Shown: positions 52,353 to 57,069 of the stretch, piece after piece
How the letters are laid out: each line of letters begins with the position of its first letter
Numbering within the stretch: the first letter of the stretch is position 1
NCBI RefSeq assembly: GCF_039233145.1
Contig: NZ_CP136419.1
Span: 62,001-126,000 of the forward strand
Origin: Moorella humiferrea
GTDB taxonomy: Bacteria; Bacillota; DSM-521; Neomoorellales; Neomoorellaceae
Direction: 5' to 3'
Length of the DNA: 64,000 nucleotides
The notes under the pieces: model-generated
Database searches by the model: none
What the model was told of the DNA's origin: nothing
The model's input: the letters and a program-made list of their open reading frames with translations, nothing else
Position numbers and translations under genes: made by a program

Positions 52353-53621
52353 ATGGCTAAGCTTTTAGAGTATCAAGGTAAAGAATGGTTACGCAAAGCA
52401 GGGATCCCGGTTCCGGTCGGCCGGGCGGCATCTTCGCCTGAGGAAGCGGAACAGATCGCGGCGGAGTTGGGCAAGCCCGTCGCCGTAAAGGCCCAGGTGC
52501 AGGCCGGCGGCAGAGGCAAATCTGGGGCGGTTAAACTCGTCAACACCCCGGCGGAAGCCCGGGAAGCCGCGACTTCCATCCTGGGTACGGTTATAAAGGG
52601 TTATCCCGTACGCAAAGTCCTCGTGGAAGAAAAACTGGATATTGCCCGTGAATATTACGTAACCATTATTGTAAATTCCGCACGTAACGCCCGGTGCCCT
52701 ATGATGATGTTTAGCACCGAAGGCGGTATGGATATTGAAAGTGTTCCCGAGGACAAGATTTTCAGGCTTTTAATTTCGCCCCTGTTCGGCCTCGAGGTAT
52801 ACGACGCCGTAGATATGCTGGTGAAAGCCGGCATCCCCAATGATCAGGTAACGACCTTTGCCAATTTGTTGGTCAAGCTGTGGAATGCTTACAAAAAGTA
52901 TGATTGCTTTACCCTGGAAATCAATCCCCTGGTAATGACGGCGGACGGGCAACTGGTAGCGGCCGACTGCAAGATGGAGGTCGACAACAGCAGCGTCTAC
53001 CGCCATCCGGAAATGGGTATTGAAATCGCCAGGGACTTCCCCCATGAGCCAACCGAGCTCGACCGCATCGGTTGGGGGATTGAGAAGGCCGATACCCGCG
53101 GTTCCGGCTTCGTCATGAGCATGGGCTTTGATGAAAAGAGCCCGGGTTATATCGGCTACCATCCCATCGGTGGCGGTTCGGCCATGATGGGCATGGATGC
53201 CCTGAACAAGGTCGGTTTGAAGCCCGCCAACTATGCCGATACCAGCGGCAATCCCGTGGCCTCCAAGGTTTACCGGGTGGCCAAGGTGGTATTGTCCCAG
53301 CCCAACATCGACGGTTACCTGCTGGGCGGCTTTATGATGGCCAATCAGGAACAGTGGCATCACGCCCATGCCGTGGTCAAAGCCTTACGTGAGATTCTAC
53401 CCAAAAAACCCGGCCTCCCGTGCGTGCTGCTTCTCTGCGGCAATAAAGAAGAGGAATCCCTGGCCATCTTACGGGAAGGCCTGAGCAACGTAGAAGGCGC
53501 CACCAGGGTGGAAATTTACGGCCGGGAACATGTAACCGACACCGATTTTATCGGTCAACGCCTGTTGGCCCTTGTTAAAGAATATCAAGCCGAGAAGCGA
53601 AAGCAGGGTGGAGACCAGTGA
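52353..53621 (+). CDS. ATP-grasp acyl-CoA synthetase beta-like subunit, malate thiokinase candidate
   Basis: A 422-residue protein of the SucC/MtkA family. The ATP-grasp domain is clear: LLEYQGKEWLRKAGIPVPVG, VKAQVQAGGRGKSGAVKLV and FTLEINPLVMTADGQLVAADCK with the metal-binding residues. The C-terminal CoA-ligase half diverges from succinyl-CoA synthetase: the nucleotide/CoA helix reads GGGSAMMGMDALNKVG instead of the usual NGAGLAMGTMD, and the NIFGGI motif is replaced by GGFMMANQEQ. It is also about 35 residues longer than SucC. Such a pair would form an acyl-CoA from acid, CoA and ATP, or make ATP in reverse. A malate specificity is inferred from the lyase and malic enzyme genes downstream; citrate, citramalate or succinate are alternatives. 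ATG after GGAAGGGACG. Confidence 0.75.
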   Translation: MAKLLEYQGKEWLRKAGIPVPVGRAASSPEEAEQIAAELGKPVAVKAQVQAGGRGKSGAVKLVNTPAEAREAATSILGTVIKGYPVRKVLVEEKLDIAREYYVTIIVNSARNARCPMMMFSTEGGMDIESVPEDKIFRLLISPLFGLEVYDAVDMLVKAGIPNDQVTTFANLLVKLWNAYKKYDCFTLEINPLVMTADGQLVAADCKMEVDNSSVYRHPEMGIEIARDFPHEPTELDRIGWGIEKADTRGSGFVMSMGFDEKSPGYIGYHPIGGGSAMMGMDALNKVGLKPANYADTSGNPVASKVYRVAKVVLSQPNIDGYLLGGFMMANQEQWHHAHAVVKALREILPKKPGLPCVLLLCGNKEEESLAILREGLSNVEGATRVEIYGREHVTDTDFIGQRLLALVKEYQAEKRKQGGDQ

Positions 53622-53926
53622 TTGAATTCTGGGAAAGGACAATTAAGGTTACCATCGATACTGATAAATGCGATGCATGCGAGACGAAGGCCTGCATCGA
53701 CGCTTGTAAAAAGTTCGCCCGGGGGCTCCTGCAGCTTAAAGACGGCAGGCCTTCGGTGGAACATTTGACGGAAGACGGCATTAAGCGTCTGGGCACGGAA
53801 TGCCTTGCCTGCGAGTATGAATGCTGGTTCCGCGGCAAGAGCGCCATCAAAATTGACGTCCCCATCGAGGGATTGGACGAGTACCTGCGCAAGCGGGGTT
53901 TGCTGGAAGAAAACGCCAACCAGTAA
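53618..53926 (+). CDS. Seven-cysteine ferredoxin-like protein inside the synthetase operon
   Basis: A 102-residue protein with Cys18, 21, 26 and 30 (C-x2-C-x4-C-x3-C) and Cys62, 65 and 69 (C-x2-C-x3-C). The two groups sit like those of a two-cluster bacterial ferredoxin, but the first spacing is one to two residues longer than the standard C-x2-C-x2-C-x3-C and one cysteine of the second group is missing. Seven cysteines could hold one [4Fe-4S] and one [3Fe-4S] cluster, or bind zinc. GTG start overlaps the previous stop (GTGA), and the next gene follows after 20 bases. Position suggests a third subunit or a redox switch of the synthetase; no family role is known to me. Confidence 0.75.
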   Translation: MIEFWERTIKVTIDTDKCDACETKACIDACKKFARGLLQLKDGRPSVEHLTEDGIKRLGTECLACEYECWFRGKSAIKIDVPIEGLDEYLRKRGLLEENANQ

Positions 53927-53946
53927 AAGGATAAAGAGGGATTAGC

Positions 53947-54843
53947 ATGGGGATTTTAATTGATAGAAACACCAAAGTCATCGTCCAGGGCATTACCGGT
54001 AGGGAGGGTTCCCTCCGGGCCAAGTATATGAAAGATTATGGTACCAAGGTGGTGGCAGGGACGAGCCCCGGAAAAGGCGGAGAAGAGGTGGCGGGTATTC
54101 CCGTCTACCATACCGTCAAACAGGCCGTCGCCGAACACGGGGAAATCGACTTCAGCGTTATATTCGTTCCCGGCCGGGCCTTGAAAGCGGCGGTTAAAGA
54201 AGCCGCCGACGCCGGTGTAAAAAACATCGTCCCCTGCGTAGAGTCGGTACCCATTCACGACATCATGGAAATGGTCGAGTATTGCAAGCTTAAAGGTGTC
54301 CGGTTGATCGGCCCGGGATCCATCGGCATCATCACTCCCGGCGAGGCGGTCGTCGGCTGGCTGGGCGGCAATGTGGAATGGGCCAACTCCTTCTTCCGGC
54401 CCGGTCCCATTGGCGTTTTCTCCCGCAGCGGCGGTCAGTCGGGAACCATTCCCTGGATCCTCAAGGAAAACGGCTATGGTGTCAGCACCGTCGTGCACAC
54501 GGGTACGGAACCGGTCCTGGGAACTTCCTTTGCCGATTTGCTACCGTTGTTTGAAGAAGATCCGCAAACAGAGGCCGTAGCTGTCTTCTCCGAAATCGGC
54601 GGTACCCAGGAAGAAGAATGCGCGGAAGTAATTGCCTCCGGCAAATTCACCAAGCCCTTCGTTATTTACGTGGCAGGCGCCTGGGCGCCGGAAGGCCAGC
54701 GTTTCTCCCATGCCTCCAGCATTGTGGAACGGGGACGCGGTTCGGCCAAGAGCAAGATGGAAGCCATTCAAAAGGCTGGCGGCTATGTGGCCATGAGCCC
54801 CAATGATATACCGCGTATCCTGAAGAGTGTATTAAAACATTAA
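53947..54843 (+). CDS. CoA-binding acyl-CoA synthetase alpha-like subunit, malate thiokinase candidate
   Basis: A 298-residue SucD/MtkB-family protein. N-terminal CoA-binding Rossmann domain with [20 protein letters not shown]; the ligase domain has [15 protein letters not shown] and the phosphohistidine loop [20 protein letters not shown] with His255 in the place of the phosphorylated His of SucD (GHAGAI). The surrounding residues differ (SHASSIV), which fits a substrate other than succinate. All features for ADP-forming acyl-CoA synthesis are present together with the ATP-grasp subunit at 52353. It starts 20 bases after the ferredoxin-like gene and ends 13 bases before the lyase gene. Confidence 0.78.
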
Positions 54844-54856
54844 GGAGGTAATCACC

Positions 54857-55753
54857 ATGGCTGTAATGCGTTCCGTTCTATACGTTCCCGGCAACAATCC
54901 CAAGATGATTGCCAAGGCCCCTTCTTTCCCTGCCGATATCATTACCCTCGACCTGGAGGATTCTGTGCCGCCGGCGGAAAAGGAAACCGCGCGTCAGCTT
55001 ATCCGTGAAAACCTGAAGGCCGTTGGTGCCAACGGTTCAGAAGTATATGTGCGCATCAATAACTGGGAAACCGAGATGACCAACGACGATTTAGAAGCCG
55101 TCGTTTATGAAGGGCTACATGGTGTGACCTTGGCCAAGTGCGGCCATCCCGATCATGTAAAGCGCCTGGATTGGAAACTGGAAGAGCTGGAGCGCCGCAG
55201 GGGTCTCCCCATCGGCAGCATTAAGGTTAGTCTCCTTCTCGAAACGGCTAAGGGTGTAATTAACGCCTACGAATCTTGTATCGCCAGCCCGCGGGTGGTA
55301 AGTGCCATCTTCGGCGCCGTCGATTACTGCAAGGATATGCGGGTAAAACTGACCCCCGAGGGCAAAGAACAGGAATACGCCCGCGCCCACATCGCCGTAG
55401 CCGCCAGGGCGGCTGGAATTGTAGCCATCGATTGCCCCTTTGTAAACTACCAGGATATGGAAGCGTTTGAAAAGAGCGTTCTGCAGGGCCGCCAGATGGG
55501 TTATGAAGGCCGTATGCTCATCCATCCCAGCCAGGTGGAACCCGCCAACCGGCTCTACGCTCCCGATCCGGCAGATGTAGAGTGGGCCCGCGGCGTGGTC
55601 AAGGCCTTTGAAGAGGAAGGCATCGCCAAGGGTCGGGCTGCTATTTCCTACCAGGGTAAGATGGTCGATACGCCCGTCTACCTCAACGCCAAAGACATCC
55701 TGAATGCCTACGAAGAAATTCAGGCCAAAGAAGCGGCTAGAAAGAAGGCCTAA
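54857..55753 (+). CDS. HpcH/CitE-type acyl-CoA lyase, malyl-CoA lyase candidate
   Basis: A 298-residue TIM-barrel protein of the CitE/malyl-CoA lyase/HpaI superfamily. Visible: MRSVLYVPGNNPKMIAKAPS, the metal and substrate region LDLEDSVPPAEKETAR, VRINNWET, LLETAKGVINA with a metal-binding Glu, and IFGAVDYCKDM with the second acid (VD in place of the usual ED). The C-terminus has MLIHPSQVEPANRLYAP, a conserved CitE segment. No citD/citF subunits are nearby, so it is not part of citrate lyase. Candidate reaction: malyl-CoA to acetyl-CoA and glyoxylate; citramalyl-CoA or citryl-CoA are other options. ATG after AAGGAGGT. Confidence 0.85.
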   Translation: MAVMRSVLYVPGNNPKMIAKAPSFPADIITLDLEDSVPPAEKETARQLIRENLKAVGANGSEVYVRINNWETEMTNDDLEAVVYEGLHGVTLAKCGHPDHVKRLDWKLEELERRRGLPIGSIKVSLLLETAKGVINAYESCIASPRVVSAIFGAVDYCKDMRVKLTPEGKEQEYARAHIAVAARAAGIVAIDCPFVNYQDMEAFEKSVLQGRQMGYEGRMLIHPSQVEPANRLYAPDPADVEWARGVVKAFEEEGIAKGRAAISYQGKMVDTPVYLNAKDILNAYEEIQAKEAARKKA

Positions 55754-55770
55754 AGTTTTACAGTTAAAGC

Positions 55771-55798
55771 CGGGGCGGTATTTTAAAAAGCCGCCCCG
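55771..55798 (+). repeat. Hairpin between lyase and malic enzyme genes
   Basis: CGGGGCGG/CCGCCCCG arms with a 12-base AT-rich loop. There is no T run after it, so it is probably an mRNA processing or stability element rather than a terminator. Confidence 0.5.
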
Positions 55799-55842
55799 CT
55801 ACCCAACTTTAGATAGTCTGAAATGAAGGGGGACGAAGGGCT

Positions 55843-57069
55843 GTGAATACCCAAGAAAGGGCCCTGCAGCTACATAAAGAGTGGCAGGGTAAAATTGAAA
55901 TTAAGGGTCGTGCGCCGGCGCGGGACGCGGTAGATCTTTCTCTAGCTTATACTCCCGGTGTCGCCGAGCCCTGCAAGGAAATCCATAAAGATCCCAAACT
56001 GGTGGACGTCTATACCCGTCGCTGGAACCTGGTGGCCGTCGTATCCGACGGGTCGGCGGTCTTGGGTCTCGGCAACATCGGCGCCCGGGCGGCCATGCCG
56101 GTCATGGAAGGCAAAAGCCTTCTCTTTAAAACCTTTGCCGGCGTAGACGCCTTCCCCATCTGCATCGATTCCCAGGATGTAGATGAAATCGTCAGGACTG
56201 TCCAATTGTTAACGCCGACCTTTGGCGGTGTCAACCTGGAAGACATTGCCGCACCCCGCTGCTTTGAAATTGAGCGGCGCCTTAAAGAGACGACTGACAT
56301 CCCTATCTTCCATGACGATCAGCACGGTACCGCAGTAGTCGTATTGGCAGGCATTATCAATGCCTGTAAAGTTACCAAGCGGGAACTGGGCGATTTGAAG
56401 GTGGTAATTAACGGCGCCGGTGCCGCCGGCATCGCCTCGGCCAAGCTCCTCTTGAGTGTCGGAGTAAAGGACGTTATCCTGTGCGATTCCAAGGGTATCA
56501 TTTCTTCGAAACGCCAGGATCTCAATACCGAAAAGCAAGAAATGCTCAAAATCACCAATAAAGAAGACCGCAGCGGCACCCTGGCCGACGCCATGGTGGG
56601 CGCCAACTGCTTCATCGGGCTTTCGGTGAAGGACGCCGTTACCCAGGATATGGTGCGCTCCATGGGTAAGGATGCCATCCTCTTTGCCATGGCCAATCCC
56701 ATTCCCGAGATCTATCCCGACAAAGCCAAGGAAGCAGGTGCCGCCGTCGTTGGTACCGGTCGCAGCGACTTCCCCAACCAGGTCAACAACGTTTTGGGCT
56801 TCCCCGGCATCTTCCGCGGCGCCCTTGATGTAAAAGCCAGCGATATCAACGACGCTATGAAGATTGCCGCCGCCCACGCCCTGGCTGATCTGGTGGGCGA
56901 ACGCCTGTCGGCGGAGTTTGTCCTGCCTGAAGCCTTCGACATGCGGGTGGCTCCGGCAGTGGCCGCCGCCGTCGCCAAGGCCGCCATGGAGAGCGGCGTA
57001 GCCCGCGAGCCCAAGGACCCCGAATGGGTAAAGAAACATACAGAAGAATTAATCGGCCTGAATCGCTGA
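55843..57069 (+). CDS. NAD(P)-dependent malic enzyme, decarboxylating
   Basis: A 408-residue malic enzyme of the short bacterial type, turning malate and NAD(P) into pyruvate, CO2 and NAD(P)H. Catalytic Tyr36 in SLAYTPGVAEP, Lys region in RRWNLVAVVSDGSAVLGLGNIG, metal ligands in DDQHGTAVV, and nucleotide loop VINGAGAAGIASAKLLL. It has no C-terminal phosphotransacetylase domain. GTG start after AAGGGGGACGAAGG. It follows the lyase gene by 90 bases and completes a route malyl-CoA - malate - pyruvate. Confidence 0.93.
   Translation: MNTQERALQLHKEWQGKIEIKGRAPARDAVDLSLAYTPGVAEPCKEIHKDPKLVDVYTRRWNLVAVVSDGSAVLGLGNIGARAAMPVMEGKSLLFKTFAGVDAFPICIDSQDVDEIVRTVQLLTPTFGGVNLEDIAAPRCFEIERRLKETTDIPIFHDDQHGTAVVVLAGIINACKVTKRELGDLKVVINGAGAAGIASAKLLLSVGVKDVILCDSKGIISSKRQDLNTEKQEMLKITNKEDRSGTLADAMVGANCFIGLSVKDAVTQDMVRSMGKDAILFAMANPIPEIYPDKAKEAGAAVVGTGRSDFPNQVNNVLGFPGIFRGALDVKASDINDAMKIAAAHALADLVGERLSAEFVLPEAFDMRVAPAVAAAVAKAAMESGVAREPKDPEWVKKHTEELIGLNR

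Follow-up and report, generated by a model that had tools for sequence, protein, structure and literature searches.

The closest described relatives of the ligase considered here are succinyl-CoA synthetase itself (SCS, SucCD) and, by expected reaction, the malate-CoA ligase MtkAB of methylotrophs. To our knowledge, SCS-type acyl-CoA-making enzymes are not known to require Fe-S clusters. Anaerobic glycolate or glyoxylate breakdown by way of a malyl-CoA pathway has been described for Moorella, Desulfofustis glycolicus and Syntrophobotulus glycolicus (PMC6313629, PMC8092247); Friedrich & Schink and Sakai et al. 2008 are cited there for the pathway. The passages on this pathway in the two papers leave the ligase genes unnamed and name no Fe-S subunit.

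We analyzed a stretch of 64,000 nucleotides (hereafter the window) from the complete, 2.67 Mb genome of Moorella humiferrea, in which the gene for a small ferredoxin-like protein, Fd, is wedged between SucC-like and SucD-like genes. Fd is most plausibly an obligate third subunit of a ligase of the SCS superfamily.

Results

Five genes oriented in the same direction occupy positions 52353-57069 of the window:

52353..53621, + strand: putative SucC-like beta (ATP-grasp) subunit, malate-CoA-ligase-type; 422 aa; Pfam ATP-grasp_2, E 3e-55
53618..53926, + strand: putative ferredoxin-like (Fd) third subunit; 102 aa, 7 Cys; sub-threshold Fer4 in Pfam
53947..54843, + strand: SucD-like alpha (CoA-binding) subunit; 298 aa; Pfam CoA_binding 2e-25, Ligase_CoA 1e-9
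54857..55753, + strand: CitE/HpcH-HpaI-type C-C lyase, probable malyl-CoA lyase; Pfam HpcH_HpaI 1e-47
55843..57069, + strand: malic enzyme; Pfam malic 1.5e-31, Malic_M 2.4e-24

The Fd start codon is a GTG at 53618, within a GTGA that also contains the SucC stop; the two genes overlap by 4 bases, and 20 bases separate Fd from SucD. The original prediction, which described a 102-residue protein with seven cysteines starting inside the SucC stop and ending 20 bases before SucD, was thus accurate on each of these points. Because the cysteines are invariant and homologues occupy the equivalent place in several phyla, the gene is not a chance one, and conservation of the sequence in distant taxa rules out a misread open reading frame. 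Two tRNAs, far from the Fd locus, were the only matches when the window was scanned with Rfam. Elsewhere in the genome there is an ordinary SucC (L159), which has no Fd.

By their domains, the two large subunits belong to the SCS superfamily (ATP-grasp beta, CoA-binding/ligase alpha). Among solved structures, the Thermus SCS beta chain is closest in sequence to the SucC-like protein (3e-69), and SCS alpha chains are closest to the SucD-like protein (8e-85). The SucC-like protein falls below every NCBIfam equivalog cut-off, scoring 268.5 bits against 370 for succinate ligase and 198.8 against 604 for malate-CoA ligase (NF010647), and the SucD-like protein reaches 281.9 of the 336 bits set for succinate ligase. 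His255 of SucD, in the motif GQRFSHAS, is retained by 97% or more of 70 relatives and lines up, by sequence, with the histidine in the KRMGHA-type motif of solved SCS alpha chains, a position that we take to be the phosphohistidine site of E. coli SucD. In the SucC-like protein, a nearly invariant NQEQWHH stretch is located at the SCS beta substrate loop.

A locus search limited to one genome per species returned 67 other loci. Fd homologues with 33-88% identity lie between SucC and SucD in several phyla, and every intact locus that reaches far enough on its contig has SucC, Fd and SucD in this order on the same strand, the lone exception among the 67 being a damaged assembly (L077). We regard this damage, and an apparent fusion in L075, as assembly artefacts. 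The lyase gene comes next in nearly all related loci, and malic enzyme adjoins the cluster in relatives from Bacillota and Actinomycetota.

A profile built from 62 Fd members was run on about 1,550 genomes, in groups labelled after the named locus that served as the centre of each sample. All 47 strong matches (47/47) lie between SucC-like and SucD-like genes: 15 in 348 Bacillota-group genomes, 20 in 297 Desulfobacterota-group genomes, 3 in 201 Chloroflexota-group genomes, 1 each in 249 Pseudomonadota-group and 227 Actinomycetota-group genomes (both being the seed genomes) and 7, again all in SucC/SucD context, in 230 archaeal-group genomes. No strong match in the about 1,550 genomes lay apart from synthetase genes, and the outcome held to count against the original prediction, homologues found mainly away from such genes, did not occur. 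Weak profile matches (L119-L127, E 1e-5 to 1e-3), which lie away from SucC/SucD pairs, were taken as generic ferredoxins; a weak SucD-like match lies close to one of them, L121.

Fd also comes and goes with one kind of SucC. In the 297 Desulfobacterota-group genomes, SucC matches of at least 343 bits together with one truncated copy number 20 and pair with the 20 Fd places, and ordinary SucC in the same genomes score at most 206 bits and have no Fd. A SucC match at 255 bits, in L187, is accompanied by a frame-broken Fd. Two Moorella-group genomes (G007 and G014) have neither Fd nor the Fd-type SucC. In a tree of 70 SucC proteins built by maximum likelihood, all Fd-bearing SucC lie on one side of a single branch with 100/99 support, and the seven-cysteine class forms one clade among them (98/99). 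Methylotroph MtkA (NF010647) lies among ordinary SucC on the far side of the 100/99 branch, and the window SucC is therefore not its orthologue. The methylotroph mtkA genes (L200-L203) nest among ordinary SucC (L193-L208), so that two or more separate origins of malate-CoA ligase activity are probable. SucC-SucD pairs that have a CitE-like lyase and no Fd occur in G004, a genome of the window's family (L158, L166), and their SucC fall in the Fd-less half of the tree. As a separate observation, the SucC gene of another Moorella-group genome (G013, L150:1738-1740) has an in-frame TAG at codon 80, a Glu codon in relatives; the gene is otherwise intact and the genome is in a single contig, leaving a pseudogene, a sequencing error or suppression as candidate causes.

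In six genomes Fd is the C-terminal domain of SucC itself: L101 (508 aa), L128 (522 aa), L078 (554 aa) and the archaeal L215, L216 and L217 (536-542 aa). These fusions sit at three or more separate places on the SucC tree, archaea included, and the partner of Fd is always SucC. Repeated fusion to one partner in separate lineages is standard evidence of physical association, by reasoning and not by experiment. Apparent fusions in L007, L008 and L058 were dropped, as the alignment had run through a stop codon. The SucC-Fd linker of L078 (6576-8237) resembles a translated dispersed repeat, and this fusion may therefore be accidental. Constant genomic linkage and gene fusion, the marks by which we judged a ligase subunit, are thus both present; together with the presence or absence of Fd alongside one ligase clade, they give strong support to the proposal that Fd is a third subunit of the synthetase.

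The cysteines of the window Fd are arranged as C18-x2-C21-x4-C26-x3-C30 and C62-x2-C65-x3-C69, and all seven are invariant in 62 of the 62 rows of our Fd alignment (A1). These are the spacings first reported for the protein; the accompanying claim that they depart from standard ferredoxins holds less well. Motif II is the canonical C-x2-C-x2-C-x3-C with Gly59 substituting the first Cys, and motif I, C-x2-C-x4-C-x3-C, resembles the Fer4_2/Fer4_6-type motifs that are the best, sub-threshold, Pfam matches of this protein. A majority of the divergent Fd relatives have eight cysteines, with a canonical motif II. In the window's clade, the first motif II Cys (C5) is Gly in 77 of 77 sequences, which leaves seven of the eight cysteine ligands expected of a 2[4Fe-4S] ferredoxin. 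By homology with such ferredoxins, C18, C21, C26 and C69 would presumably bind cluster 1 and C30, C62 and C65 cluster 2, making cluster 1 complete and reducing cluster 2 to three Cys ligands. Other departures are C5D in L129, C6D in L130 and C4D in L215. With ligands assigned in this way, every departure from eight cysteines falls on cluster 2 and none on cluster 1. As the seven-cysteine proteins are one clade, the pattern fits a single loss of the ligand, with Gly retained afterwards.

We found no Cys in SucC or SucD that tracks the loss of C5 when the seven-cysteine class is compared with the other sequences. SucC C206 is invariant in that class yet present in 8 of 12 others, SucC C362 is found in 62 of 77 members, and SucD has no conserved Cys. 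A substitute ligand from a partner protein is accordingly not supported, with C206 still a candidate. Certain SucC and SucD positions do differ between the seven- and eight-cysteine classes, some of them in SCS substrate-binding loops.

AlphaFold2 predicts the window Fd as two beta-alpha-beta halves in a ferredoxin fold (mean pLDDT 91.7). Foldseek matched this model weakly but consistently to ferredoxins, none with E <0.001; 4ov1 gave a TMt of 0.65, and the matches included 1siz, a [3Fe-4S] ferredoxin. No Pfam Fer4 model exceeds its cut-off for the window Fd, although many family members match Fer4 weakly (best E 1e-5), and searching the PDB by sequence, with either the single Fd or an Fd profile as query, gave no significant match. 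We also modelled the archaeal L216, an eight-cysteine SucC-Fd fusion, without its alpha subunit and with 36 further aligned rows, most of which read through the SucC stop where the genes are in frame and so keep the partners paired. This beta-Fd model, represented by scores and not by PAE or coordinates, has a mean pLDDT of 90.4 and a pTM of 0.85. Block means across the linker are pLDDT 84-87, against the low values of a free linker, and the SucC part matches SCS beta chains at TM 0.80 normalized to the target. The scores are compatible with a fixed SucC-Fd arrangement, short of proof.

The neighborhoods of these loci bear on the reaction. In Desulfofustis glycolicus the neighbors of the cluster are a DctP transporter protein, a GlcF-like protein and the glycolate oxidase GlcD, which scores above the TIGR00387 cut-off and has a GlcE-like part; in one Bacillota relative they are an LdhH protein, malic enzyme and a LUD-domain protein. 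The Fd loci agree with the reported anaerobic malyl-CoA pathway in gene set and host organisms. From the flanking genes and the pathway reports we therefore infer that the window genes encode a putative malate-CoA ligase, malyl-CoA lyase and malic enzyme. The original prediction had left the pathway unnamed; the flanking lyase and malic enzyme now suggest a malyl-CoA route. Divergent branches adjoin genes for citryl-CoA lyase (above cut-off) or for aconitase-like, fumarase-like or PrpD-like proteins, which suggests a wider ligase family acting on hydroxy-di- and tricarboxylates. Three divergent Fd-bearing ligases (L134:3992-7252, L133:4450-7778 and L135:5622-8921), two of them SucC-Fd fusions, are followed by citryl-CoA lyase or a close relative and have fumarase-like or aconitase-like genes nearby; they are possible Fe-S citryl-CoA synthetases. 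In the archaeal group, L221:201-5664 carries SucC-Fd-SucD-lyase and then, by eye, two fumarase-subunit-like genes and one resembling homocitrate/citramalate synthase, and reads as an archaeal variant of the pathway.

Discussion

We propose that Fd is an obligate third subunit of a ligase that would use ATP to interconvert malate and malyl-CoA. This ligase, the lyase and malic enzyme would together run the glyoxylate-oxidizing cycle of glycolate/glyoxylate-using anaerobes, the ligase probably in the ATP-forming direction. Fd would retain the 2[4Fe-4S] ferredoxin fold and pack against the beta subunit, with cluster 1 (C18, C21, C26, C69) as a complete, stable core and cluster 2 (C30, C62, C65) as a [3Fe-4S] cluster, or a [4Fe-4S] cluster with an open iron. 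MtkAB and the Fd-less SucCD-lyase operons (L158, L166) work without Fd, which is therefore not chemically required, and the clusters would be dispensable for the phosphoryl/CoA chemistry itself. Because that chemistry involves no redox step and relatives work without Fd, we favor stabilization with redox or oxygen gating: the clusters most likely stabilize the complex and, by analogy, would tie its activity to redox state or to the absence of oxygen. Taken whole, from obligate subunit and malate/malyl-CoA ligase to three-Cys cluster 2 and its gating role, we hold this account to be probable, with ample room for doubt. The analysis shows the gene order, the co-occurrence, the fusions, the ligand pattern and the predicted fold, whereas a physical complex in Moorella, its cluster content, its substrate, the direction of the reaction and the regulatory role are inferred.

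Two other roles for the clusters seem to us improbable, and equally so. The first places cluster 2 in the active site. Aconitase binds citrate at the open iron of its [4Fe-4S] cluster, and cluster 2 might likewise be a [4Fe-4S] cluster whose open iron binds malate or its CoA ester. Gly59 stands at a cluster-2 ligand in 77/77 sequences of the malyl-type clade, the departures (the C5G clade, L129, L130 and L215) concern cluster 2 only, the lyases and hydratases encoded alongside are indicative of hydroxy-di- and tricarboxylates, and the SucC/SucD differences between the seven- and eight-cysteine classes include SCS substrate-loop positions. However, eight-cysteine relatives with the same lyase type are fully ligated, the methylotroph malate-CoA ligase works without a cluster, SCS has its own substrate site and nothing places cluster 2 near it, and four departures that all fall on one cluster out of two carry little statistical weight. 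A broader version, unlikely though a little less so, is that an Fe-S ligase family was founded once and spread over bacteria and archaea, cluster 2 of the malate type having become site-differentiated for substrate binding or gating.

The second role is electron transfer or docking, in which Fd would be a relay or metabolon anchor to the Fe-S subunit of glycolate dehydrogenase, to LutB-like proteins or to pyruvate:ferredoxin oxidoreductase. The predicted ferredoxin fold and the GlcF- and LdhH/LutB-like redox Fe-S proteins that adjoin the cluster in several genomes are in keeping with such a role, but the ligase reaction has no redox step, the redox neighbors differ from lineage to lineage where SucC and SucD are constant, and the fusions are to SucC without exception.

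That Fd is an ordinary soluble ferredoxin merely sharing the operon is very improbable. Its fold and Cys motifs are ferredoxin-like, and genes of one operon often serve one pathway; yet Fd keeps its place between beta and alpha in both bacteria and archaea and in several phyla, is fused to beta in several lineages, and is missing, like the ligase, from Moorella G007 and G014. On this context and the fusions we reject a stand-alone ferredoxin. Least credible of all is a purely structural metal-site scaffold holding zinc or no metal, since the failure of the window Fd to reach any Fer4 cut-off and its one absent ligand are set against eight-cysteine relatives with the canonical C-x2-C-x2-C-x3-C, the many weak Fer4 matches and the ferredoxin-like predicted fold.

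If Fd is indeed an obligate ligase subunit, it would give an SCS-superfamily acyl-CoA synthetase an Fe-S subunit, a cofactor unneeded on paper, and supply candidate genes for the malyl-CoA synthetase step that has been proposed in anaerobic glycolate/glyoxylate users. The putative malyl-CoA synthetase of these anaerobes would not be orthologous to the methylotroph enzyme, and two genes may not suffice for engineers moving malyl-CoA routes between organisms. The fixed loss of one ligand in one clade poses a sharp question, namely whether the cluster is structural, a sensor or catalytic. The large subunits belong to a known superfamily; the Fe-S subunit is the new part by the literature searched, which covered few subscription papers and in which we found no description of such a subunit in SCS-type ligases.

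The ligase resembles SCS (SucCD) in the domain families and fold of both large subunits, the ATP-grasp domain and the conserved alpha His. Unlike the window proteins, SCS has no third Fe-S subunit, and they in turn lie under its equivalog cut-offs and carry NQEQWHH at the place of the substrate loop. The ligase is expected to carry out the MtkAB reaction and, like MtkAB, would be paired with a malyl-CoA lyase in its pathway, but the window SucC scores far under the NF010647 cut-off and belongs to a separate clade. CcsAB and ATP-citrate lyase are likewise SCS-superfamily ligases that hand their CoA product to a lyase, separate or fused, for cleavage, and divergent Fd-bearing relatives adjoin citryl-CoA lyase, whereas the solved 6hxq and ACLY entries, as listed, are without an Fe-S subunit. 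Bacterial 2[4Fe-4S] and 7Fe ferredoxins share with Fd the fold, as predicted, and the two-motif Cys pattern; in contrast to them, Fd was never seen away from ligase genes in the genomes searched, has one cluster-2 ligand fixed as Gly and carries a conserved C-terminal PIxGLxEY segment.
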